Source: a virus
Length of the DNA stretch: 22,188 nucleotides
IMG/VR virus record: IMGVR_UViG_3300023108_001196
Location: 1-22,188 of that record
Strand: one strand, 5' to 3'
Shown here: piece by piece, positions 4,540 to 22,188 of the stretch
How positions within the stretch are numbered: the stretch's first letter is position 1
Layout of the letters: the number at the start of each line of letters is the position of its first letter
Made by a program: the position numbers and the translations under genes
Notes under the pieces: model-generated
The model's database searches: none
Told to the model about the DNA's origin: nothing
Seen by the model: only the letters and a program-made list of their open reading frames with translations

Positions 4540-4762
4540 AGATCAAATTGCTGATGTTTGGATGATGTTCAAAGAATATCTAGATAAGAAACATATTGAA
4601 ATGGCAGCTGAGCGTTTTGTTGACCTACTTGCTGATTATGGCATTAGTGACGAAACATTCCAAGAACTACTCGGAACAGATGCTCAACTAGATTCTGCTA
4701 TTAATTATTATCTAGAATTAGACGATGAAGAAACATACGAGGACGAAGAAGAGGACTGGTAA
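4532..4762 (+). CDS. Small acidic protein between uvsX and uvsY, function unknown
   Basis: A 76-residue, all-helical-looking protein with a strongly acidic tail (LELDDEETYEDEEEDW). The segment ISDETFQELLGTDAQLDSA followed by INYYLE looks like a small three-helix bundle; the 'AINYYLE' ending recalls UBA-like folds, but that is weak. GAGGAG at 4516-4521 provides a ribosome site. It overlaps uvsX at its start and uvsY at its end (TAATG). Its position, locked between the recombinase and its loader, suggests a helper of presynaptic filament assembly or a DNA mimic, but nothing in the sequence proves this. Confidence 0.75.
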   Translation: MNEDQIADVWMMFKEYLDKKHIEMAAERFVDLLADYGISDETFQELLGTDAQLDSAINYYLELDDEETYEDEEEDW

Positions 4763-5217
4763 TGGGATGGTATAGTGAAGTAAGCCGTGACATTTCTAAA
4801 ATACCGGATGCTGTATCTTTTTTTGAAACAGAACTGATACAAGCACGAGCAGAATGTAAGCTCGTAGGTAATGTCGAAAAAAGTGCGGCTGCTATGCCAG
4901 GCATCGTAGAACATCGTTTTAATCAACTACAAGAAATTGAAGCCATTCTTAACTATCTAAATATTGAGCTACGTAGATTGCGTAGCTCATATTTTAAAAA
5001 GTATCTTGAAAACTATCAAAGAGCTTTGTCTAGTCGTGACGTTGAAAAATACGTTGACGGTGAAGCAGATGTAGTTGACTATGAAAAAATTATCAATGAA
5101 TTTGCATTGATAAGAAATAAATGGTTAGGTGTGCTTAAAGCACTTGATCAAAAGCAGTGGCAAATTACAAACGTAGTTAAACTACGTGTAGCAGGAATGG
5201 AAGATGCTACGATATGA
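4762..5217 (+). CDS. uvsY: UvsY recombination mediator
   Basis: A 151-residue protein that in T4 loads UvsX onto gp32-covered ssDNA as a hexamer. The identification rests on the pattern and size (T4 UvsY is 137 residues). A helical N-terminus is followed by a basic helix with LRRLRSSYFKKYLE at about residues 71-84, like the T4 'ALKARLDYYSG' region. Then comes SRDVEKYVDGEADVVDYEKI, similar in place to T4 'LSADKDVLKVD', and a C-terminal helix with WLGVLKALDQKQWQI and VVKLRVAGMED, like T4 'WGILLDFCSGALDAIKSRGF...IQDMRAFEAG'. Context (directly after uvsX) strongly supports it. The last bases overlap the first glycosyltransferase of the glycan island as ATGA. Confidence 0.82.
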   Translation: MGWYSEVSRDISKIPDAVSFFETELIQARAECKLVGNVEKSAAAMPGIVEHRFNQLQEIEAILNYLNIELRRLRSSYFKKYLENYQRALSSRDVEKYVDGEADVVDYEKIINEFALIRNKWLGVLKALDQKQWQITNVVKLRVAGMEDATI

Positions 5218-5876
5218 TCTTCCACACTGCTGCCGATAATACATATTATAATAATTTTTATAATTTGTATTCTTTAACTATTCGTCAGTTTTATCCTAAC
5301 TCAAAATTTTCTTTATATTTTTTAGGTAATCAACTACCTAATAATTCTACTATATCTTACTTAAACCAAGAAAATATTAGTTTTGAAGATATAGAACAAA
5401 AGTATAATACAACAGGAAGAGATACTAAAGGGTACTACGCACTAAGTCGTTGGAAAAGTATGCCAGTAGTAAACGAGAATGTTGTTGTTTCTGACATTGA
5501 TCTTATTGCTCTTAAATCTATACCACAAGAAATAATTAATAATATTTTTAAAAATCACGAAGCTATTAATATTAGTAGACTAAAAAAGAACGGCGATGAA
5601 GGAGGCATGGCAATGATGATCCTTCGAAAAGATATTATTGATATTGTTAATAATTTTGCAAATAATATTTTAGATACAGAAACATTACATTGGGCATCTG
5701 ATGTAAGTGTTAGAAACTTTATATACAAAAATTTTAGTGTTTATACTTTACCGGAAATGCACGTTTTTAAAAAAAGATCTAATTACAATACCCTTGATTC
5801 TACTAATAGAAGTTTTGGAATATTTAAAGGACCAATAGATCAAAAAATTTATAGTTTAACAAAGGCAAAAAAGTGA
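5214..5876 (+). CDS. Putative glycosyltransferase (GT-A type), island gene 1
   Basis: A 220-residue protein with the look of a small nucleotide-sugar-dependent transferase. An N-terminal Rossmann-like strand-helix region is followed by VVVSDIDLIAL at about residues 91-100, in which D94-I-D96 fits the metal-binding DxD motif of GT-A enzymes. A later segment (DEGGMAMMILRK and ASDVSVRNF) fits the acceptor-side part seen in this group. No membrane segment or signal peptide. It is translationally coupled to uvsY and to the next gene (GTGA). The base composition is more AT-rich than the recombination genes upstream. The sugar and acceptor cannot be deduced. Confidence 0.72.
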   Translation: MIFHTAADNTYYNNFYNLYSLTIRQFYPNSKFSLYFLGNQLPNNSTISYLNQENISFEDIEQKYNTTGRDTKGYYALSRWKSMPVVNENVVVSDIDLIALKSIPQEIINNIFKNHEAINISRLKKNGDEGGMAMMILRKDIIDIVNNFANNILDTETLHWASDVSVRNFIYKNFSVYTLPEMHVFKKRSNYNTLDSTNRSFGIFKGPIDQKIYSLTKAKK

Positions 5877-6505
5877 AGTGTAATATTTTATTAGGTGTAG
5901 ATCAAGAATACTATAATAAATGGGCTGTGCCTTTACTAGAAAGTATTCACAGGCACAACCCTTGGATTAATCTACATTGTCATATTGTTAATCCTACTGT
6001 TGAAAATTCTTTAGATAATGTTAGTATAACTACCGAAGAACGAGAATTTGTAAACGACGAATCAAAAATATCATATTTACAAAGTGTAAGATTTTTAGCT
6101 GTTGCTAATAAATTTAAAAATAACGAAAATGTTATAACTCTTGATGCTGATACTATTTGCACACGTAGAATTGGAAAAGTTGCTACAGAGAGATTATTTG
6201 AAAAACAATATGTACTAAAGCATCATAAAGAAAGCAGATGGCTTGCAGGATTCGTTACATTTAACGATAACGGGTTTAGACAAGAATATGCAAGCGAGCT
6301 AACCTCTACTCCGATTGAAAAATGGCGGTGGGGAAGAGATCAAACTATATTAAATCAACTTGCAAACAAGTATAAATTTGAAGCAGCAGATAAACTTTGG
6401 ATTACAATAGGTAAACTTAAACACCCTAGTGCGTTTTTAACTCTTAAAGGTGAACAAAAAGAAACTGAAAAATATCTCAATGTATACAGGAATTATTTAG
6501 AATGA
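5873..6505 (+). CDS. Putative glycosyltransferase (GT-A, DxD), island gene 2
   Basis: A 210-residue protein. It starts with GTG inside the previous stop codon (GTGA), and the start fits because the N-terminus MKCNILLGVDQEYY begins a classic beta strand. NVITLDADTICTR at about residues 86-98 carries the D91-A-D93 metal/nucleotide-sugar motif. FKNNENVITLDAD resembles many GT8-like and related bacterial transferases. WRWGRDQTILNQL downstream is the typical 'W..DQ..LN' element that closes the active site in such enzymes. Soluble, no signal peptide. It is related in layout, but not obviously in sequence, to its upstream neighbour. Substrate unknown. Confidence 0.78.
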   Translation: MKCNILLGVDQEYYNKWAVPLLESIHRHNPWINLHCHIVNPTVENSLDNVSITTEEREFVNDESKISYLQSVRFLAVANKFKNNENVITLDADTICTRRIGKVATERLFEKQYVLKHHKESRWLAGFVTFNDNGFRQEYASELTSTPIEKWRWGRDQTILNQLANKYKFEAADKLWITIGKLKHPSAFLTLKGEQKETEKYLNVYRNYLE

Positions 6506-7086
6506 AATCATATATTATACGATTGTCTGATTTTCCTAACAGCGTAGAATGGGCACAAAAAGCATACAAGTCTGCTAGGATGCATAACTGGGATGTATAT
6601 TTTTTCGAAGGTAGTAACGGACAAAAAGAAACGTTAAAAGATTATAACATAAAAATTAATTCTAAATATAAAAAGGCTATTGCATCATTTGAACGTGTTG
6701 GCACTGTTGGATGTTTCTTAAGTCATTATCGATTATGGAAAAAATGTATTGAACTTGACGAATCTATTTGTATATTAGAGCATGATGTTACAATACATAA
6801 ATCTTTTCCGGAAGTAGAATTTAATGATGTTATTAAACTTTCTACTAATAAAAAAGCAAAGGAAATTTATTTAGGTGAATGGTGGGCCGGCGCAATGGGA
6901 TATTGTGTTAGTCCTCAAGGTGCAAAAAAACTTGTAAACTTTGTAGAAACTAACGGTGCAATGCCAGCAGATACAATGCTATGCACTGGAATAATTGATT
7001 TGCAGTTTTATAACCCAATAAATACTGTTGTTACATATGTAATAGACGACTTTAGTTTTACTTGGGATTTAAAAAATGGACGATAA
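6502..7086 (+). CDS. Glycosyltransferase family 25 (LPS-type)
   Basis: A 194-residue protein. The pattern ERVGTVGCFLSHYRLWKKC at about residues 64-82, then ESICILEHDVTIH at 87-99, is the hallmark of family 25 transferases. These add galactose and similar sugars to lipooligosaccharide in Gram-negative bacteria; here the usual ED(D) is EHD. WAGAMGYCVSPQGAKKL further on is the second family signature ('G..gY.is..gA+kL'). The length is at the short end for the family and the C-terminus stops soon after the second signature, so it may be a minimal version. The start overlaps the upstream stop as ATGA and the end overlaps the methyltransferase by 11 bases. Confidence 0.85.
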   Translation: MKSYIIRLSDFPNSVEWAQKAYKSARMHNWDVYFFEGSNGQKETLKDYNIKINSKYKKAIASFERVGTVGCFLSHYRLWKKCIELDESICILEHDVTIHKSFPEVEFNDVIKLSTNKKAKEIYLGEWWAGAMGYCVSPQGAKKLVNFVETNGAMPADTMLCTGIIDLQFYNPINTVVTYVIDDFSFTWDLKNGR

Positions 7087-7639
7087 GTGGATAACAGGCT
7101 GGCTTAATAACTCTTATCATGCCGAGTCAAAAGAAAAAATATTTAAAAAAATATCATCTTATACTGGACCTGTAGAAACTATGTTAGATATAGGATGTGG
7201 TATTGCTAGAGAAAGCGAACATTTTCATAAAACCTTCGGAACGAAAATATATTTGTTAGACGGTGATTTTGATAATACAAAAGATAACCCTCGTGATGCT
7301 AATTACGGCGGCGTAAAAGATTTTAAATTTTACAGTAAAATTACAGATTTAAAAAAGACATATGATGAAAGAAATATGGAGTATGTTTTTATAGATGCAA
7401 ATAACATTCAGATAGACAAAAATATAAAATTTGATTTATTTTATAGTGCTGTTAGCTGCGGCTTTCATTATCCAGCGTCTACATATAAGCATCTGATACA
7501 AAAACACAAACATAAAAATTCTAAAATTATTTTTGATATTAGAAAAAAATCTAATCAAAAAGATATAGTTATAAAAAACATACTAAGCGAAACTAAAAAA
7601 TACATAACAGCTGAAATTGAGTTTAAAAATGAAATATAA
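7076..7639 (+). CDS. SAM-dependent methyltransferase (class I), putative
   Basis: A 187-residue protein. Residues 37-47 (LDIGCGIARES) are a clear motif I for binding S-adenosylmethionine, and YLLDGDFDNT shortly after is the acidic motif II position. MEYVFIDANNIQ and FDLFYSAVSCGFHYPAS correspond to motifs III-IV. It has no DNA-methyltransferase catalytic motif (no obvious NPPY or PCQ). Together with its place inside a glycosyltransferase run, this favours a small-molecule or sugar methyltransferase. It overlaps its neighbours by 11 bases on each side. Methylation often caps a glycan chain, but the target is unknown. Confidence 0.72.
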   Translation: MDDKWITGWLNNSYHAESKEKIFKKISSYTGPVETMLDIGCGIARESEHFHKTFGTKIYLLDGDFDNTKDNPRDANYGGVKDFKFYSKITDLKKTYDERNMEYVFIDANNIQIDKNIKFDLFYSAVSCGFHYPASTYKHLIQKHKHKNSKIIFDIRKKSNQKDIVIKNILSETKKYITAEIEFKNEI

Positions 7640-8270
7640 TGTACAATACAGAGAAGTACTAGACAAACAATGGCTTTGGCCTAAGAAAGATAGAAAAGCC
7701 TGGACTTACTTAACATTGCCAGGGCATCTTAATTTTCCTAACGAAATTTCTTCTATGATTACATCGCATAGAACTGTTATACAAGCGGGCGGACATTGTG
7801 GACTATATCCTTATCAATATTGTAACACTTTTGATAATGTATATACGTTTGAACCTGAAACTGTAAATCATCATTGCTTAGTAGAAAACCTAAAAGAAAA
7901 AACAAACGCACAAATTTTTAATCTTGGTCTAGGAAATATTAAAGAACAAAAAGGTATTGTATTAGATAGAAAAAATACAGGCAAACATATGATATCAGAA
8001 GATTTAGGAAATATACAAATTACTACTATTGATGATTTAGATATTAAAGATGTAGATTTAATACAGTTTGATTTAGAAGGTTATGAATTATTTGCTTTGC
8101 AAGGTGCAGTTAATACTATAGAAAAATATAAACCTTTAATTGTACTAGAAACAAACGACTTGTGCTTAAACTTTGGATATAGTTTGACAGATTTAGACAA
8201 TTGGATCTACTCTTTAGGATATAAAAAGATTAAAGAATGGGAAGATGATACAGCATATGCACCTGTTTAG
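7629..8270 (+). CDS. FkbM-family methyltransferase
   Basis: A 213-residue protein from ATG 7629 (an in-frame TTG at 7617 is less likely). TVIQAGGHCGLYP at about 49-61 is the SAM-binding loop in the form typical of FkbM enzymes. VYTFEPE at 71-77 is their conserved acidic motif, and LIQFDLEGYELFALQGA at 144-160 followed by KPLIVLE is the family's C-terminal hallmark. FkbM enzymes O-methylate sugars or polyketides, and are common in surface polysaccharide clusters. It is the last gene of the forward run that begins after uvsY. Its stop overlaps the stop of the convergent sulfotransferase gene. Confidence 0.85.
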   Translation: MKYNVQYREVLDKQWLWPKKDRKAWTYLTLPGHLNFPNEISSMITSHRTVIQAGGHCGLYPYQYCNTFDNVYTFEPETVNHHCLVENLKEKTNAQIFNLGLGNIKEQKGIVLDRKNTGKHMISEDLGNIQITTIDDLDIKDVDLIQFDLEGYELFALQGAVNTIEKYKPLIVLETNDLCLNFGYSLTDLDNWIYSLGYKKIKEWEDDTAYAPV

Positions 8271-8294
8271 AATATGTAATTAAACATATCTAAA
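8266..8294. terminator. Imperfect AT-rich stem-loop at convergent gene ends
   Basis: TTTAG (8266-8270) plus ATATGT (8272-8277) pairs with ACATAT (8284-8289) plus CTAAA (8290-8294). It has one bulged A and a six-base AATTAA loop, and sits across the facing stop codons. It could act as a weak two-way terminator. The stem is AT-rich and lacks a clear T-run, so support is limited. Confidence 0.35.
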
Positions 8295-8914
8295 TCTTCT
8301 TCATAAATTTTCTGTGCTAATTTTTTTGTTTTGTTTGAAAATAAGTCTCTATAATTTCCATTATTTTTAGACTTATTAGCATATCCTAGTTCTATATTTT
8401 CAAACAAATACAATTTTTTAATGTCATTAATTGACTCAAATTTAATAATAGTTTTTACATCTTCTGACAGCCAAGCACTTTGATTGTTACTCAATGAAAA
8501 CCAAGTGTAGTCCCAAGGCTCGTTAACATAACGATCAAACCAAGGATTAAATCCGCTGTTCATTACTGCTAGTTCTTGTGTTACTTTGTGCATATCGTCA
8601 ACTACTCTTAATGGCTTTGGCGAATTCTTTTTAAGTTGTTTTAATCCTTTTTGAAGAACTTGCTGCCTAAAAAAATACCAACTAGCTGCTCTGTCAAACG
8701 GATTTCTTACAATACTAAACACAAAATAATCTTTAACATCTACAATATCTTTTGTATGATGTATTGTACTGTGAAAGTTGTTATCTTGAGTTATGCTATT
8801 TTCTATAGTAGAAGTTTTGTATGCTTTGCTTAACGATTTAATTACACTAGCGCCGGCCGTTTTAGGTATGTGTATAAAGATTGCCGGTTTAGGAGAATTT
8901 ATAATGTAACTCAT
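8267..8914 (-). CDS. Sulfotransferase (Sulfotransfer_2-like), inverted gene
   Basis: A 215-residue protein. AIFIHIPKTAGASVIKSL at about residues 11-28 is the 5'-phosphosulfate-binding loop of the carbohydrate sulfotransferase group. FVFSIVRNPFDRAASWY at 64-80 is the 3'-phosphate-binding motif (R70, S78). These enzymes move sulfate from PAPS to a hydroxyl or amino group, usually on sugars. The family in eukaryotes is Golgi membrane-bound; this one has no membrane anchor and should be cytoplasmic. It is one of two inverted genes in the island, with its own late-type promoter and no Shine-Dalgarno sequence. PAPS must come from the host. Confidence 0.85.
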   Translation of the reverse strand: MSYIINSPKPAIFIHIPKTAGASVIKSLSKAYKTSTIENSITQDNNFHSTIHHTKDIVDVKDYFVFSIVRNPFDRAASWYFFRQQVLQKGLKQLKKNSPKPLRVVDDMHKVTQELAVMNSGFNPWFDRYVNEPWDYTWFSLSNNQSAWLSEDVKTIIKFESINDIKKLYLFENIELGYANKSKNNGNYRDLFSNKTKKLAQKIYEEDLDMFNYIF

Positions 8915-8916
8915 AA

Positions 8917-8951
8917 AGATATTTATCAGTTAAATGCGTACATAAATATCT
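8917..8951. promoter_or_regulatory. Divergent promoter pair built on a perfect 10-bp inverted repeat
   Basis: AGATATTTAT (8917-8926) and ATAAATATCT (8942-8951) are perfect inverted copies 15 bases apart, in the gap between the divergent sulfotransferase and nucleotidyltransferase genes. Each arm contains a NATAAATA late-type element pointing outward: CATAAATA (8941-8948, forward) and GATAAATA (8927-8920, reverse). Each element ends exactly five bases before its gene's ATG. Neither gene has a Shine-Dalgarno sequence. The simplest reading is two back-to-back late promoters giving leaderless mRNAs; the symmetry could also serve as a binding site for one regulator. Confidence 0.55.
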
Positions 8952-8953
8952 GT

Positions 8954-9715
8954 ATGAAAACAGTATTAGTCACAGGAGGATTTGATCCTCTGCACTCCGG
9001 ACATATAGAATATTTTAAAGCAGCACGAGAATTAGGAGATCGATTAATCGTAGGAGTTAACAGCGACGATTGGTTAACACGAAAAAAAGGTAAACCGTTT
9101 ATGCCGTTTAAAGAACGTGTTGCTATTATTAAAGAACTAGCAGTAGTAGATAAGGTTATAGGATTTGACGACAGCGACAATAGTGCAAGTCAAGCAATTT
9201 TTCATACAATGTCAACTACAACTGGCAAGATTATATTTGCCAATGGCGGCGATAGAAGTAATACTACTACACCTGAATACGAAGCATATGGCGGACATCC
9301 TAGTGTAGAATTTGCATTTGGTGTAGGCGGCGAAGATAAAAAGAATTCAAGCAGTTGGATTTTAAAAGAATGGGCTCAACCTACTACAGAACGTGCATGG
9401 GGCAACTACACTGTGCTAGATAAAGGCGATGGCTGGGCTACTAAAAAACTTGCGTTTGATGTAGGTAAAAGTCTTAGCGATCAACGACATTTTAAACGTT
9501 CAGAACATTGGCATGTTGTAGAAGGTACAATACACATGGCATTACAATTTGAGAATAATGACATAATTAATAAAACATACTATTCGGGAGACAGTATTGA
9601 CATACCAGTTAATACTTGGCACAAAGCAACAAACGTAGGTGATATTACCGCAAAGGTAATTGAAGTCTGGTTAGGTGATGAGCTAACCGAAGAAGATATT
9701 GAAAGAAGAGACTAA
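8954..9715 (+). CDS. Sugar nucleotidyltransferase fused to a ManC-type cupin
   Basis: A 253-residue two-domain protein. Residues 1-140 are a cytidylyltransferase-like domain: KTVLVTGGFDPLHSGH contains the H14-x-G-H17 nucleotide-binding motif, then GVNSDDWLTRKKGKPFMPF and RVAIIKEL follow. FANGGDR and NSSSWIL stand where HldE/TagD-type enzymes have 'KGGD' and 'SST'. Residues about 150-253 are a cupin (DQRHFKRSEHWHVVEGT, SGDSIDIPVNTWHKATN, IEVWLGDELTEEDIERRD) like the C-terminal domain of mannose-6-phosphate isomerase/GDP-mannose pyrophosphorylase. It probably activates a sugar phosphate to an NDP-sugar; the donor nucleotide is unknown. Start ATG 8954 chosen: a longer frame to 8870 runs into the divergent gene and its promoter. 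Confidence 0.82.
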   Translation: MKTVLVTGGFDPLHSGHIEYFKAARELGDRLIVGVNSDDWLTRKKGKPFMPFKERVAIIKELAVVDKVIGFDDSDNSASQAIFHTMSTTTGKIIFANGGDRSNTTTPEYEAYGGHPSVEFAFGVGGEDKKNSSSWILKEWAQPTTERAWGNYTVLDKGDGWATKKLAFDVGKSLSDQRHFKRSEHWHVVEGTIHMALQFENNDIINKTYYSGDSIDIPVNTWHKATNVGDITAKVIEVWLGDELTEEDIERRD

Positions 9716-11409
9716 TGGATCCATTAAGAATATATGTAGGCTGGGATAGTAGAGAAGATATTGCTTACCAAGCCTGTAAACAAAGTTTGTTAGATACTGC
9801 ATCAGTTCCTATTGAAGTTATTCCTTTAAAGCAAAGATTACTAAAAAGAGACGGGCTATATTGGCGCAAGTCAGACAAACTTGCTAGTACTGAATTTACA
9901 TTTACAAGATTTTTAATAGCAGAAATGGCACAGTTCAAGGGTTGGGCATTGTTTATTGATTGTGACTTTATTGCTGTTGAAGATGTAAAAAAATTATTTG
10001 ATCAAGCTGACAATAAGTATGCATTAATGTGCGCACAACACGATTATACGCCTAAAGAAGGCACAAAAATGGATGGCAGACAACAGTTAAACTATCCACG
10101 TAAAAATTGGTCAAGTATGATGTTAGTTAACTGCGGACATCCAAGTAACGCAAAACTAACAAAAGACCTTGTTAACGATCCTAATATTGACGGTAAGTAT
10201 CTACATAGATTTAGTTGGTTAAAAGATAACGAAATTGGTGCAATTAGTCACGAATGGAACTGGCTAGTAGGATGGTATAAAGAACCGGAAGATGGAAAGC
10301 CGAAGTTTATTCATTATACAGAAGGCGGACCTTGGTTCGAAGAATATAAAGATTGCGAGTATAATTTAGAATACTACAGAGCAGAACGTAAGTATCTAAT
10401 GGAAGGTATAAAAGGTGCAGAACAAAAGACAAATTTAGCAAAATCAAAAGGATCAAAATTTGAAGAGTTAACCTTACCTAGTGAAGTACTTGATACCGTA
10501 AAAACAGTAATATATACACCAATTGATCCTACAGGTAAGTATTACGGAAACACCCAGGAAGAAGCAATGAAAATTATACAAAATAAATTTATGAAAGGAA
10601 CAGTTCATAAAAATGCTGCAATTGATCCTGAAGAGGGAATTGCATATAACAAAGACGGATTACAGTACGACGAATATTTACAAAGTTTTGTAATAGGTAG
10701 TGGTGGTAGATTAAGTGATTGGAAGACTGAAGAACGTACAGATACACCATTAGTAATTAGAGGACTAGGCGGCGGCAGTAGAAAAGCTCTACAGCATTGT
10801 TGGGAAACAAAGCGTACATTTTATGCTATTGATACAGGGTATTTCGGTAACGAAGGAAGCAAATCTAAAATATGGCATCGTGTAACTAAGAACGCATTAC
10901 AAAATACACAACCTATTATGTATCGACCTGATGACCGTTTACTAAACTGGAAATACAAAAAGTTTAAAGGCGATGGGAGAAAAATTCTACTTGTTCCTCC
11001 TAGTGAAAAAGTTATGATGTTATGGGATCAACCGAGTCCAGAAGAATGGGTAAAGCAGGTTAGCGAACAATTAAAAGAGTATACAGATCGTCCTGTCGAA
11101 ATTAGATTAAAACCTGATCGTAGACACAGAATTACAAATCAATCACTAGAAGCAGCAATGGCAAATGATGTTTATTGTGTAGTTACATATAATAGTATTG
11201 CAGCACTTGAAGCACTTAATTTTGGCAAGCCTGCTATTGCGTTAGGTCCTAATTGCGCAACTGCTGTATGTAACACAGAACTATCACAAATTAATAATCT
11301 AAATATGCCAGACAAAGATACAATGTATTCTCTTATGTGTCATTTAAGTTATGCACAATTTAATAGAGAAGAAATGATGAACGGCTATGCTTGGGAGATA
11401 GTAAAGTGA
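9715..11409 (+). CDS. Two-domain glycosyltransferase (GT8-like plus polysaccharide-synthesis-like domain)
   Basis: A 564-residue protein, the largest of the island. Residues 1-230 form a GT-A transferase: RIYVGWDSREDIAY at the start, STEFTFTRFL near 58-67, GWALFIDCDFI with D82-C-D84, and HYTEGGPW at 200-207 (the late His that closes the active site). A linker of roughly 100 residues leads to a second domain (about 345-564) with ILLVPPSEKV, DRPVEIRLKPD (458-468), VVTYNSIAALEAL and GKPAIALGP. The same domain is found alone in the genes at 11406 and 13809. It has the look of a GT-B-like or capsule-synthesis domain. The fusion may couple two sequential sugar transfers. Start overlaps the upstream stop as TAATG. 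Confidence 0.75.
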   Translation: MDPLRIYVGWDSREDIAYQACKQSLLDTASVPIEVIPLKQRLLKRDGLYWRKSDKLASTEFTFTRFLIAEMAQFKGWALFIDCDFIAVEDVKKLFDQADNKYALMCAQHDYTPKEGTKMDGRQQLNYPRKNWSSMMLVNCGHPSNAKLTKDLVNDPNIDGKYLHRFSWLKDNEIGAISHEWNWLVGWYKEPEDGKPKFIHYTEGGPWFEEYKDCEYNLEYYRAERKYLMEGIKGAEQKTNLAKSKGSKFEELTLPSEVLDTVKTVIYTPIDPTGKYYGNTQEEAMKIIQNKFMKGTVHKNAAIDPEEGIAYNKDGLQYDEYLQSFVIGSGGRLSDWKTEERTDTPLVIRGLGGGSRKALQHCWETKRTFYAIDTGYFGNEGSKSKIWHRVTKNALQNTQPIMYRPDDRLLNWKYKKFKGDGRKILLVPPSEKVMMLWDQPSPEEWVKQVSEQLKEYTDRPVEIRLKPDRRHRITNQSLEAAMANDVYCVVTYNSIAALEALNFGKPAIALGPNCATAVCNTELSQINNLNMPDKDTMYSLMCHLSYAQFNREEMMNGYAWEIVK

Positions 11410-12332
11410 AAGTAGTTAGTTACTACAATGTAGTACCTAGCAAAAATAAAAGTCAAGAAAAGTTTAACATTTTAACTAAATTTGTGCAAGGTGTTAATGC
11501 AGCCGGCGATATTGGTGTACTACACAAAGGAAACGATTTAATAGATTCAGACGTTGGAGTCATACAAGGCTGGCAACATGAACGTGGCAAGAACGCTCCT
11601 CATTTGAGACTACGACAAAGCGTCATAGATTGTACAAAAAATAAGCATGTTTGTTGCGCAGATGCTAATTTATTTTTGTATGCTAACAAATCAAACGAGC
11701 CACATCATTACCTTCGATATAGTTTTGACGGAGTATTCCCTAATACAGGAAATTATTTTGACAACAATATTGATCCAAAACGTTGGGAACAAATAAGCAA
11801 AGACACAGGCATCGTTTTAGAAAATAAAGTACGAGACAAGGGACATATTTTAATTTGTGCTCAAAGAGAAGGCGGATGGAGTATGGGAACTTTAAGTTTA
11901 GACAAGTGGCTTATAAAAACATGCAATGCTATTAGAAATTTTTCTGATAGACCTATACGTGTAAGATTGCATCCTAAAGATAATCAAACAAACAGACGTG
12001 CAGGTGAAATAAGTAGACTACTTAGACAGGTAAAATTTGCTACAGTACAGAACAATAGATATTCTTTAGAAGATGACTTAAATGGATGCTGGGCAGTTGT
12101 TAATCATAATAGTAGTTCAATAGTTGGTCCTATTATACAAGGTTATCATGCATTTATAACAGATCCTAACACTAGCCAATGTGCAGAAGTAGCACATTCA
12201 GATTTTAGTAGATTAGAATCACCTAAAGAGTTTGACAGAGAAAAATGGCTTCAGCGTATTAGTATGTTCCATTGGAAATTTAGTGAACTTGAAGATGGAT
12301 CAGCCTGGAGACATATGAGACAATATGTATGA
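11406..12332 (+). CDS. Polysaccharide-synthesis-like protein, paralogue of the 9715 C-terminal domain
   Basis: A 308-residue protein starting at GTG 11406 within the upstream stop (GTGA). An in-frame TTG at 11391 is less likely. The C-terminal half contains HILICAQREGGWS, DRPIRVRLHPKDN (181-193), WAVVNHNSSSIVGPIIQG and a closing segment rich in aromatic residues. The order and spacing match the second domain of the upstream protein and the 13809 protein (ILxx...DRPxxxRxHP...NS...G.A). The N-terminal half has the feel of a Rossmann domain (KVVSYYNVVP, DVGVIQGWQHERGK). A GT-B-fold transferase acting on a polymer is the best guess; I cannot name the family with confidence. Confidence 0.65.
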   Translation: MKVVSYYNVVPSKNKSQEKFNILTKFVQGVNAAGDIGVLHKGNDLIDSDVGVIQGWQHERGKNAPHLRLRQSVIDCTKNKHVCCADANLFLYANKSNEPHHYLRYSFDGVFPNTGNYFDNNIDPKRWEQISKDTGIVLENKVRDKGHILICAQREGGWSMGTLSLDKWLIKTCNAIRNFSDRPIRVRLHPKDNQTNRRAGEISRLLRQVKFATVQNNRYSLEDDLNGCWAVVNHNSSSIVGPIIQGYHAFITDPNTSQCAEVAHSDFSRLESPKEFDREKWLQRISMFHWKFSELEDGSAWRHMRQYV

Positions 12333-12943
12333 TAGTAAAATTTCCAAATCAAAAAACGCTGTATGTTGCTTGTAGTAAAAAAGTCGGATCAACTAGTGTA
12401 ACAAGTATTTTAGGATTTCCTAGAGCACAAAGGCACTTAGCCAGACAGATGAAACATGTTTTAGGAAAACATGACGAATGGTGGAAAACCTTACCACGTA
12501 GTCCTTATAGTTCTTTAGATGAACTAGACTACAAGTATGCACTTGTTCGCGATCCTGTGCAAAGAGTTGTAAGTTGTTTTAAAGATCGTGTAATGTTAAA
12601 AAATAGAAATAACATTAAAAAAGAAGTAAACAACTGGGAAGATTTTATAAACAATCTCGATTATCTTAGAGAAAAGTATATAGATTTAAAAAGGCACTCA
12701 TTACCGCAAGTAGTTGTACTTAAAAAAGATCCTAGTTTTTATGATAACATTTACTTAACACAAGAAATTGGTACTAGATTTTTAGATGATGTATCTAAAA
12801 TTTCAGAATGCAAGATACGTCCTACTCAAACAAAAACAACTTCACAAGTTAATGTCTTAGTAAATGTTACAAAAGAGCATGTCGATATAATCAAAGATTA
12901 TTATTCAGATGATTATACATATTGGGGAGATTATTTCCAATAG
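12329..12943 (+). CDS. Second sulfotransferase (Sulfotransfer_2-like)
   Basis: A 204-residue protein. KTLYVACSKKVGSTSVTSIL at about 9-28 is a 5'-phosphosulfate loop with the P-loop centred on KKVGSTS. KYALVRDPVQRVVSCFKDRV at 69-88 is the 3'-phosphate motif (R74, S82). It differs strongly from the inverted sulfotransferase at 8267, so the two are not a recent duplication and may sulfate different positions. Start is coupled to the previous gene (ATGA). It ends in a 13-base overlap with a convergent gene. Soluble, no anchor. Confidence 0.82.
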   Translation: MIVKFPNQKTLYVACSKKVGSTSVTSILGFPRAQRHLARQMKHVLGKHDEWWKTLPRSPYSSLDELDYKYALVRDPVQRVVSCFKDRVMLKNRNNIKKEVNNWEDFINNLDYLREKYIDLKRHSLPQVVVLKKDPSFYDNIYLTQEIGTRFLDDVSKISECKIRPTQTKTTSQVNVLVNVTKEHVDIIKDYYSDDYTYWGDYFQ

Positions 12944-13767
12944 TCTTCGGTTCTGTTAACCATTAAGTCTTTAGGCAAACTTTTGCCACTGTCTTTACGT
13001 CCGCCTTTCATGTGATCCATCCATTTACCTAACGGACCATTAATAAGTGGATGTCCACCACCGCCTGTCTTAGCTTCCTTAAGATACATGTCTGCACTAT
13101 AATCGTGTGACGGAAACTCTTTATACTTGTTTAATATTTCGCCAAAGATATAACTGTCGTGCCATTCTTCTAACTTAAACATTCCGTTTTCCGCATCTTC
13201 ATACATTGCTTCAAAGTCCTTCATAAACTCGTGACACACAGGATGATTTTTATTCATACCATAGAATCCGCACTCGGGCCATGTTTGTGATCCTTTACCT
13301 CTACCTACATATGTAATGTATGTGTTGTTAGGCAGCAGTGATATAAAGTCTTCGTAACTCCAGTGACTGTGGATGTAACTGTCTGCGTCCATCCATACAA
13401 TCCAATCCTTGCCTTTTTCAAATGCATCAAATACTGCATAAGTTTTATTAGCAAATCTAATGCCATCCCACTTAAATGCTTTATGCCAATCTCTTGGGCG
13501 TCTTGCTTTTATATCATCTGGAGGAATGCCGTTTGCTCTAGGATCGTTTTTATATTTTTCTTTAAATGCATTTAGTTTAGGTAATGCCTTTTCTGCACTT
13601 AGTATTTCTATTCTTCTTATATCTGGATTAGGAGGTAATATTCCTTCAGCATATACTACTAATTTAATTCTTGGATCTACTTGTTTTGCAAAACTTTCTA
13701 AAAATCTTTGTCCGTATTTTGAATACCCGTCTGGATGAAATGTTGTAACCACAGTTATTGCTGGCAT
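12931..13767 (-). CDS. Glycosyltransferase (GT-A, DAD motif), inverted gene
   Basis: A 278-residue protein. The N-terminus AITVVTTFHPDGYSKYGQRF begins a GT-A fold. KDWIVWMDADSYIHSHW at about 120-136 contains the D127-A-D129 metal motif. WPECGFYGMNKNHPV and LEEWHDSYIFGEIL downstream match the region that holds the acceptor and catalytic acid in similar bacterial and phage transferases ('E.GF..fN..hp', 'WHDS'). It has a GAGG ribosome site (complement of 13773-13776). It is the second inverted gene of the island and converges on the second sulfotransferase. Confidence 0.8.
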   Translation of the reverse strand: MPAITVVTTFHPDGYSKYGQRFLESFAKQVDPRIKLVVYAEGILPPNPDIRRIEILSAEKALPKLNAFKEKYKNDPRANGIPPDDIKARRPRDWHKAFKWDGIRFANKTYAVFDAFEKGKDWIVWMDADSYIHSHWSYEDFISLLPNNTYITYVGRGKGSQTWPECGFYGMNKNHPVCHEFMKDFEAMYEDAENGMFKLEEWHDSYIFGEILNKYKEFPSHDYSADMYLKEAKTGGGGHPLINGPLGKWMDHMKGGRKDSGKSLPKDLMVNRTEDYWK

Positions 13768-13778
13768 TGTGTACCTCG

Positions 13779-13807
13779 TGTAAATAAACTATATGAAAGT
13801 ATTTACA
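13779..13807. promoter_or_regulatory. Divergent promoter region with an 8-bp inverted repeat
   Basis: TGTAAATA (13779-13786) and TATTTACA (13800-13807) are perfect inverted copies between the divergent genes ending at 13767 and starting at 13809. Each TGTAAATA points toward its own gene across the other and differs by one base from the NATAAATA late motif. Unlike the 8917-8951 site, these would leave short leaders of about 15-27 bases, and the reverse gene has a GAGG ribosome site. Function as overlapping late-type promoters or as an operator is inference. Confidence 0.35.
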
Positions 13808-13808
13808 T

Positions 13809-14663
13809 ATGAAATTTAGTTTATGGACAAATTATGGCGCACTTAATAGTAGAGAAGTTTTTAATGCCTTTGCTCACAGTCTTGTGGCTGCTGGGCATGA
13901 CGTTGTTTGGAACGACCCTGTATCTGATGTTGATGTTATTTGGAGTGTTCTATTCGCTGGGAGAATGGCTAAGAATAAAGATATCTGGAAAAGGAACTTG
14001 GAACAATCCAAACCGACCGTGGTCCTAGAAGTAGGTGGTATAAGTAGAGGTACAACTTGGAAAGTTGCATTAAACGGAATTAATAGAGATGGTTACTTTG
14101 GTGATAACGGTAATAACAGCGATCGTGCTAATGTTTTGGATCTTTCGCTAAAGCCTTGGCGGAATAACGGCGAATACATTCTTATATGCGGGCAACACGA
14201 TAAAAGTCTGCAATGGATTAATATGCCTAGTATGAGTAACTGGGTAATGAATACAATTACTGAAATACAAAAACATACTGATAGGCCAATTGTTTTTCGT
14301 CCTCATCCTAGATGCACATTACCCAGCATTGAACACGAATTTAAAAACGTTCGTAGACAAACACCTAAACAAACACCTGGTAGCTATGACGATTTTGATA
14401 TAGACTACAGCAACGTATATGCTACTGTAAGCTATAGTAGTAATCCTGGTATACACAGTGTACTAGAAGGTGTTCCAGCGTTTGTAAGCCCTAGCTCGTT
14501 AGCGTATGACGTTGGTAACGACATAGACTTTCTTCACGATATAGAAACACCATTGACTCCGGATAGAACACAATGGCTAAACGATTACGCTTGGACTGAA
14601 TATACAGTAGAAGAAATTTCTGCAGGACTACCACTTAAACGCTTGACTTCTAAACTGTTTTAA
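13809..14663 (+). CDS. Polysaccharide-synthesis-like protein, third copy of the shared domain
   Basis: A 284-residue protein. It has two halves: a Rossmann-like N-terminus (MKFSLWTNYGALNSREVFNA, with VDVIWSVLFAGRM), and a C-terminal half with YILICGQHDKS, TDRPIVFRPHPR (157-168), YATVSYSSNPGIHSVLEGVP and AFVSPSS. The C-terminal pattern is the same as in the 9715 and 11406 proteins. The first ~220 bases use noticeably different synonymous codons (GCT, GTT, CTT, GGG) from the rest of the gene. The last gene of the island; its C-terminal codons contain the -35 box of the next promoter. Confidence 0.68.
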   Translation: MKFSLWTNYGALNSREVFNAFAHSLVAAGHDVVWNDPVSDVDVIWSVLFAGRMAKNKDIWKRNLEQSKPTVVLEVGGISRGTTWKVALNGINRDGYFGDNGNNSDRANVLDLSLKPWRNNGEYILICGQHDKSLQWINMPSMSNWVMNTITEIQKHTDRPIVFRPHPRCTLPSIEHEFKNVRRQTPKQTPGSYDDFDIDYSNVYATVSYSSNPGIHSVLEGVPAFVSPSSLAYDVGNDIDFLHDIETPLTPDRTQWLNDYAWTEYTVEEISAGLPLKRLTSKLF

Positions 14664-14671
14664 GTTATAAT
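14643..14671 (+). promoter_or_regulatory. Sigma70-type promoter for the HARP-like gene and uvsW
   Basis: TTGACT (14643-14648), a 17-base spacer, and TATAAT (14666-14671) make a near-perfect bacterial promoter. It would be read by unmodified host RNA polymerase, so it is probably an early promoter. Only six bases lie between the -10 box and the ATG at 14678, so the expected start site falls on or next to the start codon and the mRNA would be leaderless; no Shine-Dalgarno sequence is present. Confidence 0.75.
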
Positions 14672-14677
14672 ATACTT

Positions 14678-15916
14678 ATGAATACAGTAGAAGATTACCT
14701 TGAATTATTAGTTGGACTTAAAAACAGTTCTATGTTTAAGATAGAGTCTAGCGACATTTCTATATTACAAAGTATAGGAAGACAAGTCTTTAGGGGAACA
14801 GCATTAACTGATAGACAATATTCTTTAGTAAAAGAAAAACTACTAAAATATAAAGATCAATTTGACAATAATTCTAATTTTGAAGTAGAATTAGAAAATC
14901 TTAGAATGCCTCTGAGAGAAATTGATAGAAGCAAATATATTAAAGTTTGTGATTATGATAATCCGTTTCCTAACACACCCTATCATTTGCATAAAAGTGA
15001 TAGAAAGTGGATTAAGGTTAGATTTCCGTTTAGTAAAAAACTTATAGTAGAACTAGATAAAATACAAAAGGTAGGCGACTATCATCATACAAAAGGTAGC
15101 CACGAACATTATTTTGTTCTCAATGAAAAAAATATACACCGTTTGGTAGAAATATTTAAAGATAAGAATTTTGACATAGATGATTTTCTTATTGAAACAT
15201 ATGAACAATTAGAAAAAATTAATAACAATAAACATTTATATATTCCTGGTGTATATAACTTTGAAGTAAAACATTTACCAGATGTTGCTAAAACTAATTT
15301 AGAAAAAATGTTAGGAAAACCTACAACTAAAAATTTAGCACTTTATAAAGACAAACAAAAAATATTCGGATTAAACTATTTTGACAAAAATGACTTAGAA
15401 ATTAGTACTAATAATTTAAGTATTATTAGTCAAAAAATAATCAACAGAACACAAAAAAACGTGATGGTTAATTCAAACAAATACACGTTTGATAACTTAA
15501 TATATAGCATAGTCGAATTAAAAAGATTTCCTCTTTTAGTAATACTACCTTCTGACAATCCATTAAATCATTTGGTTAAAGTACATAGAGCTTTTAGAAA
15601 CATTCTAGATGACACTGAGTCTACAGTTTTATTTAGACTAGATAATGACAAAAATAATGACTTTAATAGTTACATTAAAGACAATAAACTAAATTCTCCT
15701 CTTGACAAAAACACAAAAATAGTGTATATTAACGATAAGATACCGAAACCTTTAATCAAATCTGATTGGAATGCTTATACTGCTCTTATGTTAGAAAGTA
15801 TTAGACCAAACATAAAAACAAAAGCATATCTAAACGAATTTGATTTAGTACTACAGTTTGATAGTAATACATCTCAGTACATGCGGTTTCAAAGACAATC
15901 TATTGAGGAAATTTAA
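14678..15916 (+). CDS. Protein with a HARP-like domain upstream of UvsW, function unknown
   Basis: A 412-residue protein I cannot assign to a named family. Residues 28-60 (SILQSIGRQVFRGTALTDRQ, then VKEKLLKY) resemble the N-terminal lead-in of phage SF2 helicases. Residues about 111-181 (WIKVRFPFSKKLIVELDKI, then HEHYFVLNEKNIHRLVEIF and FDIDDFLIETYEQLEKI) fit the pattern of the HARP/SMARCAL1 annealing domain: 'V.+PF...LI..L.KI...Y.......F.L.E.NI..L'. The C-terminal 200 residues have alternating hydrophobic strands (FPLLVILPSDN) but no Walker A, DExx or motif VI, so no working helicase is visible. It abuts uvsW, and a role with UvsW in fork regression or annealing is plausible. Confidence 0.6.
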   Translation: MNTVEDYLELLVGLKNSSMFKIESSDISILQSIGRQVFRGTALTDRQYSLVKEKLLKYKDQFDNNSNFEVELENLRMPLREIDRSKYIKVCDYDNPFPNTPYHLHKSDRKWIKVRFPFSKKLIVELDKIQKVGDYHHTKGSHEHYFVLNEKNIHRLVEIFKDKNFDIDDFLIETYEQLEKINNNKHLYIPGVYNFEVKHLPDVAKTNLEKMLGKPTTKNLALYKDKQKIFGLNYFDKNDLEISTNNLSIISQKIINRTQKNVMVNSNKYTFDNLIYSIVELKRFPLLVILPSDNPLNHLVKVHRAFRNILDDTESTVLFRLDNDKNNDFNSYIKDNKLNSPLDKNTKIVYINDKIPKPLIKSDWNAYTALMLESIRPNIKTKAYLNEFDLVLQFDSNTSQYMRFQRQSIEEI

Positions 15917-17383
15917 TTGGCAAGTTGCAAACTAATAATTGAAGATGAAGTAAACATCAAACTAGAAGGATTAGATGTAGATGTTAGAAGAAAGCTCTCC
16001 AATGCTCTTAAGTTTGAAGTGCCTTATGCTCGATACATGCCCCAGTATAAACTGGGACGATGGGACGGTAAAGTTGCTTTCTTTGGTATTGGCGGGACAG
16101 GCTACGTTAATCATCTTGATGTCATTGTTGATACTTTACAAAAAAATAACGTCCAAATAGTTGACATTGAAGATAATAGACATCCAGTACAGTTTAACTT
16201 TCCTACTATTACAGAACGTTACTGGGCAGACCAAGGTGTACGCTGGCCAAAAGGTCATCCTGCAGAAGGCGAAGAAATAATTCTGCGTGACTATCAAGTT
16301 ACAGCAATCAACAACTTTCTACAAAACCCACAGAGCTTGCAGGAAATTGCAACAGGTGCAGGTAAAACAATTACCACAGCCACACTGTCACACATTAGTG
16401 AGCCGTACGGACGTAGTCTTGTGATTGTGCCTAACAAATCACTTGTTACACAAACAGAAGAAGACTACATCAATTGTGGGTTAGACGTAGGGGTGTACTT
16501 CGGAGACAGAAAAGAACTAGGTAAGACTCACACTATATGCACTTGGCAAAGTTTGAATATACTTGACAAGCGGCATAAGGACGGCGCGGCTGTATTAAGC
16601 CTAGCAGAGTTCTTAGAAGGTGTAAGCACTATTATTGTCGACGAAGTACACCAAGCTAAAGCAGAAGTACTAAAGAATCTGCTTACACGCAACCTACGCA
16701 ACGCTCCTATCCGTTGGGGACTAACTGGCACAGTACCTAAAGAGAAGTTTGAGTTTGAGTCTATCCACGCTTCATTAGGTCCAGTAATTGGACAGATCAG
16801 TGCTAAGGAATTACAAGACAAAGGTGTGCTATCACAGTGTCATGTTAACATTGTACAATTAATGGACACTCAAGTACACACTGATTATCAATCAGAATTA
16901 AAGTATCTAGTAACAAATAAAGACAGAATAGAATATATAGGCAAACTACTAAACACAGTAAGGCAATCAGGTAATACACTTATACTTGTAGACAGAATTA
17001 GTGCAGGCGAAATGCTACAAGAACTAATACCCGGATCAACATTTGTAAAGGGTGACGTTAAGCTAAAAGATCGAAAGGATGCTTATGACGAGATTAATAC
17101 AGGTGATAACCAAGTGGTCATCGCTACATATGGGGTTGCGGCTGTTGGGATTAATATTCCTCGGATCTTTAACCTTGTTCTTATTGAGCCTGGTAAATCT
17201 TTTGTTCGTGTTATTCAATCTATAGGTAGAGGCGTAAGAAAGGCAAAGGACAAAGACTTCGTACAAATATGGGATCTTACAAGCACTTGTAAGTTTGCGA
17301 AGCGGCACCTTACTCAACGTAAAAAGTTTTACAAAGAGGCGCAGTACCCATTCACAATTGAAAAGGTGGACTGGAATGTTTAG
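15917..17383 (+). CDS. uvsW: UvsW helicase (SF2 branch-migration helicase)
   Basis: A 488-residue helicase. T4 UvsW unwinds R-loops, regresses stalled forks and drives branch migration, and it shuts off origin-dependent replication. Motif Q/I: LRDYQVTAINNFL then ATGAGKT at about 145-151; motif II DEVH at 242-245; motif III GLTGT at 268-272; motif V ATYGVAAVGINIP; motif VI QSIGRGVRKAKD at 434-445. The N-terminal region (YMPQYKLGRWDGKVAFF, about 41-56) is the UvsW DNA-binding domain signature. It starts with TTG directly after the upstream TAA; no ATG is available before residue 41, which lies inside the conserved domain. Expressed with the HARP-like gene. Confidence 0.92.
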   Translation: MASCKLIIEDEVNIKLEGLDVDVRRKLSNALKFEVPYARYMPQYKLGRWDGKVAFFGIGGTGYVNHLDVIVDTLQKNNVQIVDIEDNRHPVQFNFPTITERYWADQGVRWPKGHPAEGEEIILRDYQVTAINNFLQNPQSLQEIATGAGKTITTATLSHISEPYGRSLVIVPNKSLVTQTEEDYINCGLDVGVYFGDRKELGKTHTICTWQSLNILDKRHKDGAAVLSLAEFLEGVSTIIVDEVHQAKAEVLKNLLTRNLRNAPIRWGLTGTVPKEKFEFESIHASLGPVIGQISAKELQDKGVLSQCHVNIVQLMDTQVHTDYQSELKYLVTNKDRIEYIGKLLNTVRQSGNTLILVDRISAGEMLQELIPGSTFVKGDVKLKDRKDAYDEINTGDNQVVIATYGVAAVGINIPRIFNLVLIEPGKSFVRVIQSIGRGVRKAKDKDFVQIWDLTSTCKFAKRHLTQRKKFYKEAQYPFTIEKVDWNV

Positions 17384-19530: not shown

Positions 19531-19531
19531 A

Positions 19532-20438: not shown

Positions 20439-21148
20439 AACAATTGATTGTAAATAATCATTTAATATTTCCTACTGTAGTATCTGAAACATTACACACT
20501 GTTACAGATAAGGAAAAAGACTGTTGGTTTGATTTATACTTAAAAAATTCTAACAATGAAGGTAGGTCTCAAGACTTTATTGGATTTGAAAATATACAAA
20601 ATGAAACAATATTTAATGATCTATTAATGAACAAATTAAAAATTAGTATCAATGAATATTTTAAATGTCTTAATATAAATGCAGACACCCTTGATGTACA
20701 TCTAACTAAGTGCTTTTTTAATGTTACTAATCAGAGTGGTATTGATGTTCACGACCATTCCGAAAATCATATTTCTTTTACCTATTATCCTTTTATTGCT
20801 AACGGAAAAGATAGAGATATTATGATTTATAATTTTAATGAAGCTCATGCTAACGAACCTTATGCACATTTTTTTAGTAACTATATTACTGAATGGACGT
20901 CTATAAACAGTAATATTATTTCATTTCCTATAACAGAAGGTTCTCTTTTTATATTTCCGTCTAAGTTAAAACATTGTATTGAAGAACGACAAGGCGACAA
21001 ATATGAAGAAGGAAAAACATTTACAAATAAAGAATCATTGCAACAAAGCCGCTTTTGTGTAGCGGGCGACATGTTGTATACTAAAAAAGAAAATATAAAC
21101 AGTTACAATCGAGCTTTGTCAAATCCTAAAAATTGGAGAATAATATGA
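20435..21148 (+). CDS. Putative 2-oxoglutarate/Fe(II) oxygenase (2OG-FeII_Oxy_5-like)
   Basis: A 237-residue protein. VHLTKCFFNVTNQSG then IDVHDHSENHISFTYYPF at about 103-120 gives H106-x-H108, the metal pair as found in this subgroup. EGSLFIFPSKLKHCIEERQG at 168-187 carries the distal histidine H180, and R206 in SRFCVAGDM is the expected 2-oxoglutarate ligand. The spacing fits the family pattern 'N....G...H.H....SG.YY...G.l.lFPs.L.H.v...R.si'. It is the second oxygenase in the window and only distantly like the one at 18579. Coupled to both neighbours (ATGA). Confidence 0.75.
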   Translation: MKQLIVNNHLIFPTVVSETLHTVTDKEKDCWFDLYLKNSNNEGRSQDFIGFENIQNETIFNDLLMNKLKISINEYFKCLNINADTLDVHLTKCFFNVTNQSGIDVHDHSENHISFTYYPFIANGKDRDIMIYNFNEAHANEPYAHFFSNYITEWTSINSNIISFPITEGSLFIFPSKLKHCIEERQGDKYEEGKTFTNKESLQQSRFCVAGDMLYTKKENINSYNRALSNPKNWRII

Positions 21149-21951: not shown

Positions 21952-22188
21952 TCAATACAGCAATTTTAATTCCAGCTAGATACGGTAGCACACGTTTCCC
22001 AGGAAAGCCATTAGCTATGTTAGATGGCATTCCTATGATTAAACGTGTGTATGACGCTTGTAGTGCGTCTAAGATACCAACATTTGTGCTTACTGATAAT
22101 AAGACTATTGCACAATGTATTCAAAGTGCAGGCGGTAAAGTTTACATAGACTCAAAAGATTATGCTAATGGTACAGAACGTTGTGCTG
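21948..22188 (+). CDS. kdsB: CMP-Kdo synthetase (3-deoxy-manno-octulosonate cytidylyltransferase), 5' part
   Basis: The gene starts at ATG 21948 within the kdsA stop (ATGA) and runs past the end of the window; only 80 codons are present. NTAILIPARYGSTRFPGKPL is the KdsB nucleotide-binding N-terminus. FVLTDNKTIAQCIQSAG and NGTERC correspond to the 'VATDD..I......G' and 'sGTDR' positions of the family (here with Asn and Glu in the variable places). The enzyme couples Kdo to CMP, the donor for Kdo transferases. Directly after kdsA, so the phage can likely produce activated Kdo or a related sugar. Confidence 0.9.
   Translation, partial: MINTAILIPARYGSTRFPGKPLAMLDGIPMIKRVYDACSASKIPTFVLTDNKTIAQCIQSAGGKVYIDSKDYANGTERCA

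Follow-up and report, generated by a model that had tools for sequence, protein, structure and literature searches.

The virus record IMGVR_UViG_3300023108_001196 from IMG/VR, 22,188 b long and analysed as a whole (the window), carries an island of 12 open reading frames (ORFs; i01 to i12) with predicted functions in glycan assembly between the genes uvsY and uvsW. The gene order was read from the ORFs and from family searches. In phage T4, uvsY and uvsW lie close together; in the window they are separated by 10,699 b. The 5′ flank is formed by uvsY (4762..5217, plus strand; phrog_231, E-value 1.5e-16), the stop of which overlaps the start of the first island gene by 4 b, and the 3′ flank by uvsW (15917..17383, plus strand; phrog_16, 6.4e-76). 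The position of the island, proposed previously from the sequence without database searches (the sequence-only reading), is confirmed by these two flanking families. That reading counted eleven glycan-related genes, but its own list sums to twelve, the number of ORFs that span 5214-14663, with ends mostly overlapping.

The island is organized into a core and slots of exchangeable genes. Slot A, which follows uvsY and precedes the core, begins with i01 (5214..5876, plus strand), which encodes a putative transferase of the GT-A type with a DxD motif (DID at residue 94) and a match to DUF1647 below the cut-off (0.0053). It has no match in the 160 comparison loci described below, and its only other occurrence is in G001, a contig nearly identical to the window. 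The i02 product (5873..6505, plus strand) is GT8-like (7.9e-4, below the cut-off) and has matches in 16 loci, including L002. The slot continues with i03 (6502..7086, plus strand), a GT25 family transferase (PF01755, 3.9e-20); i04 (7076..7639, plus strand), a probable methyltransferase with a DIGCG motif (Methyltransf_23/25, 0.012, below the cut-off); i05 (7617..8270, plus strand), an FkbM methyltransferase (PF05050, 3.7e-10; TIGR01444, 50.9 bits, cut-off 37.7); and i06 (8267..8914, minus strand), a sulfotransferase (PF03567, Sulfotransfer_2, 9.5e-12). A second sulfotransferase, i10 (12329..12943, plus strand; PF03567, Sulfotransfer_2, 1.8e-7), is located in slot B. Both i06 and i10 pass the Pfam cut-off of 22 bits, with 46 and 32 bits, respectively, and the island sulfotransferases contain motifs that we take to be of the 3′-phosphoadenosine-5′-phosphosulfate (PAPS) type.

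The core is formed by i07, i08, i09, i11, and i12. The i07 product (8960..9715, plus strand) is a fusion of an HxGH nucleotidyltransferase with a cupin (PF01467, CTP_transf_like, 3.5e-15; PF01050, MannoseP_isomer, 7.9e-21). The 564-residue product of i08 (9715..11409, plus strand) consists of a GT8-like GT-A domain (residues ~1-235, i08N; Pfam GT8 1.6e-5, 25 bits, cut-off 24.3) and a GT-B domain (residues ~300-564, i08C); its strong PHROG match (5.9e-49), to a PHROG without function, is confined to the N half. The remaining core genes encode i09 (11391..12332, plus strand), a GT-B protein with a predicted fold of transferases of beta-linked 3-deoxy-D-manno-oct-2-ulosonic acid (Kdo); i11 (12931..13767, minus strand), of an unnamed family that is probably GT-A, with a DxD motif (DAD at residue 127); and i12 (13809..14663, plus strand), a GT-B paralogue of i09. 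These three belong to no Pfam family; i08C, i09, i11, and i12 gave no useful Pfam or PHROG match, and their sequence search of the PDB returned nothing above noise (best E-value 0.07). Pfam thus supports the earlier calls of GT25, FkbM, two Sulfotransfer_2 proteins, the nucleotidyltransferase-cupin, and the GT8 part of i08, whereas i01, i02, and i04 stay below the cut-offs. None of the 12 island ORFs contains a hydrophobic stretch over the threshold (highest 19-residue hydropathy 1.23, threshold 1.6), and by hydropathy there is no membrane flippase, polymerase, or transporter among them.

To compare loci, IMG/VR was scanned twice, with uvsW and with uvsX, and the best 80 loci of each list were combined into a set of 160, of which 39 carry uvsY and uvsW in order. 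The island is present between the two genes in 35 of the 39, with gaps of 6.2-9.7 kb (median 7.9 kb), all of them exceeded by the gap of the window (10.7 kb). The other four loci (L071, L074, L077, and L079) contain no island, and in their gaps of 1.2-1.3 kb a single gene is found, of the type positioned between the island and uvsW in the window (14678..15916, plus strand; 412 aa, function not assigned). Because it occurs there alone, this gene is not regarded as a member of the island. In the listed loci its counterparts are only 24-46% identical, far below the conservation of the neighbouring genes.

According to ORF calls in the 35 islands, i07 is present in 28, the N part of i08 in 34, i09 in 33, i11 in 34, and i12 in 33; the absence of i12 from L031 and L032 is an ORF-calling miss, since tblastn detects it in both. 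The N part of i08 is fused to a GT-B part in 12 of the islands and separate in 22. The i11 gene is on the minus strand in 21 islands and on the plus strand in 13, which are otherwise alike, as if it had been inverted or exchanged repeatedly. Slot A holds 79 ORFs of 28 families across the same islands. Its content similarity between loci with 90-97% identical UvsW (24 pairs) is 0.19, compared with 0.77 for the core; the corresponding values are 0.63 and 0.85 above 97% identity (7 pairs), and 0.04 and 0.66 below 80% (297 pairs). The median ratios of nonsynonymous to synonymous substitution rates (dN/dS) of core genes, 0.10 for i07, 0.07 for i08, 0.12 for i09 (8 pairs), 0.10 for i11, and 0.16 for i12 (11 pairs), show that the core is under purifying selection; the medians of kdsA, uvsX, and uvsW are 0.15, 0.10, and 0.06. 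Among three slot genes, pairs were obtained for i02 alone, and these were two. The core occupancy, the turnover of the slots, and the core dN/dS identify a maintained module with swappable parts. It is almost certain that the uvsY-uvsW locus of a lineage of large T4-like phages holds a modular glycan-assembly module with a largely constant core and exchangeable slots. The genes are therefore not a random set, as the sequence-only reading had argued; the comparison of relatives that it proposed reveals conserved flanks, an island absent from 4 of 39 loci, and genes replaced in others, so that relatives do not all share the same fixed genes, though the core is largely fixed.

The isolates closest to the window by UvsX are the jumbo phages Sinorhizobium phage Phosso (66.4%), Vibrio phage 2.275.O (65.8%), and Agrobacterium phage Atu_ph07 (65.1%); no matches to island proteins were found between uvsY and uvsW of Phosso and Atu_ph07. 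The island or parts of it occur in L080 (UvsW identity 69%) and in L193-L195 (59-60%), and the four islandless loci have UvsW identities of 69-70%; a gain followed by loss and repeated gain both fit this distribution. The empty, short, and long versions of the site allow tests of function by comparing related phages. Scanning 84,980 genomes for two peptide patterns of i12 identified six loci, five with uvsW and one (L192) without it in the 11 kb examined. Loci L190 and L191 (PBPT01000016.1, PBPT01000082.1) come from a Neomarinimicrobiota metagenome-assembled genome (MAG), in which a 335-kb contig carries UvsW at 86% identity, a full island, and kdsA/kdsB; this contig has the appearance of a related jumbo phage that was assigned to a bacterial bin.

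An assembly chimera, which the sequence-only reading had named as a possible objection, was rejected: the 98.6-kb contig G001 (L002) is 99.9% identical to the window over 5917-21863, although the two may share a sample. The G001 ORFs from terL to the oxygenase gene at 20435 are 100% identical to those of the window over the compared part. At its end (21700-22188), within kdsA/kdsB, the window departs from L002, the long match stopping at 21863, and is closer to L003; either recombination or a contig-end switch could produce this departure.

Profile comparisons connect i12 with i09 (2.7e-35), i12 with i08C (1.3e-18), and i09 with i08C (3e-22). These profiles newly identify the C half of i08, i09, and i12 as members of a single GT-B family that lacks a Pfam name. 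The two proteins that had been described as polysaccharide-synthesis-like are thereby placed in one family with i08C. The AlphaFold2 model of i09 has a predicted local distance difference test (pLDDT) score of 92.2 and a predicted template modelling (pTM) score of 0.87. In its comparison with the PDB by VIA-align, places 1-15 are taken by KpsC, KrkA, and WbbB, with Z-scores from 13.7 (root-mean-square deviation 4.1, 243 aligned residues) to 11.4. A polysialyltransferase follows (Z 10.6 over 128 residues), and its place directly below the Kdo transferases shows that the CMP-binding half is common to more enzymes. Foldseek ranks the KpsC-Kdo adduct first (6.3e-7, TM-score 0.46), and among viral proteins the nearest folds are those of Tetraselmis virus 1 (1.9e-15). 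The model of i08 has a pLDDT of 75.5; its N half matches GT8, LgtC, and UGGT folds (Z ~13), the whole model brings up KpsC and WbbB, and i08C, taken from this weaker model, matches KpsC in Foldseek (6.6e-5). A beta-Kdo transferase fold is therefore predicted for i09, and i12 may be likened to it through homology.

According to the available parts of the published descriptions, retaining beta-Kdo transferases are defined by a nucleophile Asp and the carboxylate-binding Gln of a QxxxD motif, together with a (K/R)xHP motif (PMC12887879, PMC10148158, PMC9587256). The alignment of 316 family members (85 of i12, 124 of the i09 type, and 107 of the i08C type) shows the (K/R)xHP motif of CMP binding as RLHP in i09 and RPHP in i12; i08C has RLKP, which does not conform. 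The carboxylate-binding Gln is kept in i09 and i12. The column of the nucleophile Asp contains Ser in 85/85 i12 and Gly in 85/85 i09 core members. A column that the alignment would equate with the catalytic, general-base Glu holds Glu in 85/85 i12 and Asp in 85/85 i09, and an Arg is present in 85/85 i12 and 77/85 i09. QxxxD and [RK]xHP occur together in 34 of the 316 members; all 34 are additional copies that relatives carry at varying positions, and the window has none. The Pfam family Capsule_synth is touched by 4 of 22 Asp-bearing copies (best 3.7e-4), and the copy of L088 reaches 17.5 bits, below the cut-off of 20. A tree built from 77 members separates the i12 group, the i09 group, and the Asp-bearing copies, each by one branch, with support of 100/100, 100/100, and 99/96, respectively.

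The fold and the donor motifs make i09 and i12 resemble transferases of Kdo or another CMP-ulosonate, but the key residue places them outside the retaining class. They may be inverting, because the nucleophile is lost while the CMP motif, the Gln, and the acid are kept. KpsC (GT107), WbbB (GT99), and KrkA (GT140) thus share the predicted fold with i09, and the (K/R)xHP motif and the Gln with both i09 and i12; the window copies differ from them in having no nucleophile Asp and no PDB sequence match, and the family in occurring in several copies per phage locus. The series of Asp, Ser, Gly, and loss of Gln at the catalytic positions is a ready set for studying how a glycosyltransferase mechanism changes.

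A candidate donor pathway is encoded behind uvsW, outside the island. The kdsA gene (21133..21951, plus strand) is identified as Kdo-8-phosphate synthase by family score, and its product matches solved KdsA structures (PDB 3fs2, 7.8e-80). The product passes TIGR01362 (323.9 bits, cut-off 314) and NF003543 (340 bits, cut-off 242) and falls short of a third equivalog, NF009109 (226.2, cut-off 457). It is followed by kdsB (21948..22187, plus strand; PF02348, 1.4e-18), which is CMP-Kdo synthetase-like and cut by the record end. The island itself is thus not the complete-looking set that had been proposed, since kdsA and the start of kdsB are located at 21133-22187. The KdsB of L193 passes the subfamily model NF003952 (196.7, cut-off 193) and not the equivalogs. 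Of the uvsW loci, 51 extend at least 4.5 kb beyond this gene, and 23 of these contain kdsA: 23 of 30 with UvsW identity of at least 81% and 0 of 21 below. The gene is therefore a lineage trait and does not accompany all islands. Asp-bearing GT-B copies occur along with kdsA in L015, L021, L023, L034, and L190; kdsA was found in 4/4 loci with such a copy and 10/19 without, a sample too small and too related for a test. In L193, the island itself contains KdsB adjacent to two GT-B genes, all on the minus strand and with overlapping ORF calls. In Synechococcus phage S-SCSM2R, a relative of i08N (47%) is followed by two unnamed genes, KdsB, and KdsA; the unnamed genes match none of the GT-B profiles of the family. 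Arabinose-5-phosphate isomerase (SIS family) was absent from the nine viral records searched, including the 357-kb G006, and SIS matches came only from the MAG holding L190. Kdo or a related ulosonate is the probable donor of the island.

The best overall explanation, which we advance tentatively, combines the module with a Kdo-type donor and a virion acceptor. KdsA and KdsB would raise the level of CMP-Kdo, with arabinose-5-phosphate and the phosphatase step supplied by the host. Kdo or another CMP-ulosonate would be moved by i09 and i12, perhaps with inversion, and the GT-A enzymes i01, i02, i03, i08N, and i11 would add further sugars, one of them activated by i07. Methylation could be carried out by i04 and i05, and sulfation by i06 and i10. 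From the gene content we infer that the product would be an acidic (Kdo-type), methylated, and sulfated glycan. The absence of membrane proteins from the island suggests a cytosolic acceptor. A virion protein has somewhat less than an even chance of being that acceptor; it is slightly favoured over host lipooligosaccharide because of a tail-fibre neighbourhood in Caulobacter phages and because the core is found almost only in phages. In two Caulobacter phages, C1 and CcrSC, tail-fibre genes are followed within a few genes by relatives of i08C (GT-B-like) and i08N (GT8-like) and by an FkbM gene. A rather improbable extension is that, in a transferase family specific to viruses, an ancestral retaining Asp enzyme was copied several times, the core copies became inverting CMP-ulosonate transferases and the exchangeable copies stayed retaining, and that the Kdo-type glycan coats the virion, so that slot swaps alter its outer decoration and thereby switch its serotype.

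Several observations weigh against the explanation with a Kdo-type donor and a virion acceptor. The nucleophile Asp is missing from all three window copies, and i08C lacks both the Gln and the His, the core having Pro in place of Gln and Lys in place of His in 46/46. The structural match of i09 to KpsC is moderate (Foldseek TM-scores 0.45-0.58), and its Foldseek matches include UDP-GlcNAc 2-epimerases (from 5.8e-5, plus a related epimerase) and TagF. The intact, divergent KdsB of L002 scores best as CMP-Kdo synthetase, yet below every curated cut-off. In 24 of 43 i12-bearing loci, kdsA was not found in the examined flank. Of 44 loci that extend 6 kb or more past uvsW, none carries an Asp-bearing copy, though 20 have kdsA, so that kdsA is not tied to that copy. 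The island of the window is not beside tail-fibre genes. The lack of transmembrane segments does not separate a virion from a lipopolysaccharide (LPS) acceptor, because assembly of the LPS core needs no phage membrane protein, and KpsC-type enzymes act on lipid or polysaccharide.

It is quite possible that the same enzymes remodel the lipooligosaccharide or capsule of the host from the cytoplasmic side, resulting in superinfection exclusion or less grazing. Kdo and the GT25 and GT8 families are characteristic of LPS, the turnover of decorating genes fits phage-phage competition, and a host-surface role is proposed in the available parts of reports on P-SSM2 (PMC2984593), pelagimyophages (PMC7029224), and jumbo phages (PMC7824862). 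However, members of the i12 family came only from phage contigs or, for L192, from a contig lacking uvsW in its examined part, and its Caulobacter phage relatives are near tail-fibre genes; neither point is decisive.

An unlikely reading, which concerns the donor and hence overlaps with either acceptor, is that kdsA and kdsB are ordinary auxiliary genes that sustain host LPS and have no connection with the island, and that the GT-B enzymes use another nucleotide sugar. Both genes are listed among marine viral auxiliary genes in the accessible part of PMC10653327, nine genes separate the island from kdsA in the window, many islands have no kdsA nearby, and the occurrence of this gene does not follow that of the Asp-bearing copies. 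Against this stand the linkage of KdsB to GT-B genes in L193 and of KdsA and KdsB to the i08N relative in S-SCSM2R, and the predicted Kdo transferase fold of i09.

DNA is an unusual target for FkbM methyltransferases and for sulfotransferases, and the thymidylate synthase family, which includes base hydroxymethylases, was found in one of nine partial viral records (G006, a plain ThyA) and not in G001 (98.6 kb). Attachment of the glycan to modified bases of the phage DNA, one of the products suggested originally and consistent with the several glycosyltransferases of the island and with DNA modification by such phage enzymes elsewhere (PMC12619734, as far as its available part reports), is therefore very unlikely.

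Phage LPS clusters, jumbo-phage polysaccharide systems, viral kdsA/kdsB, and predicted giant-virus Kdo pathways are already in print (PMC2984593, PMC7029224, PMC7824862, PMC10653327, PMC9614988, each as represented by its available parts). The LPS or glycan clusters of P-SSM2 and pelagimyophages resemble the island in their many glycosyltransferases, sugar nucleotidyltransferases, and variable content; they differ in being located at another site, which in pelagimyophages is a hypervariable region with tail fibres, and the available parts of their descriptions (PMC2984593, PMC7029224) report no constant core with paralogues of Kdo transferase fold. The capsular polysaccharide systems of jumbo phages (Iyer et al., PMC7824862) share HIGH nucleotidyltransferases, cupin isomerases, and paralogous glycosyltransferases, but neither the word sulfotransferase nor Kdo appears in the main text of that paper, and its available part describes no uvsY-uvsW site. 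The cassette of Pelagibacter phage Mosig EXVC030M shares i08N, two i08C-like genes, an i11-like gene, a sulfotransferase, and two methyltransferases; this phage differs in belonging to the family Kyanoviridae, and its cassette is beside ruvC and ribonucleotide reductase genes. Kdo synthesis accompanied by methyltransferases and glycosyltransferases, as in the window, is predicted for Cafeteria roenbergensis virus and Fadolivirus in the available part of PMC9614988. These are eukaryotic giant viruses, for which the isomerase and phosphatase are also predicted, with fused multidomain enzymes in Cafeteria roenbergensis virus. No published description of the i08C/i09/i12 family or of the uvsY-uvsW island site was found in a search that excluded most subscription journals and saw its sources in part. 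Glycosyltransferase clusters of large phages are usually labelled as LPS genes without a substrate; the combination of a largely constant module, an enzyme family that has no name, and a possible pathway to the donor makes the substrate testable.

Upstream of the island, the window contains the end of a terminase gene, identified by its match to the annotated terminase of Phosso, a structural gene (phrog_13484), a gp32-like single-stranded DNA-binding protein gene (our reading, without a family search), and uvsX, followed by a small gene and uvsY. The late-promoter-like sequence TATAAATA occurs in the window at 2339 only, and sigma-70-like and terminator-like sites within 4500-16500 are at chance level. 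Two 2-oxoglutarate-Fe(II) oxygenases and a small cupin are encoded between uvsW and kdsA (18579-19169, 19153-19530, and 20435-21148); the cupin is 84-92% identical in the listed loci and matched in 53, and the oxygenases are matched in 4 and 1. The same interval contains a queuosine-precursor (preQ0/preQ1) transporter (19532-20188; TIGR00697, 94.3 bits, cut-off 50.95), with matches in 21 loci. The 357-kb relative G006 (L188 15184-15629, L186, L172) encodes a permuted transfer-messenger RNA (RF04321, 127 bits; also RF01850, Betaproteobacteria) and has 27 transfer RNA calls, which loosely point to a host among Proteobacteria. A carbamoyltransferase gene (L049 18908-20410) belongs to a family that 18 loci carry some 7.4 kb downstream of uvsW, and another family (L028 7627-8394), with a weak match to C2H2 zinc fingers, is located downstream of the kds genes and is present in 58 loci.

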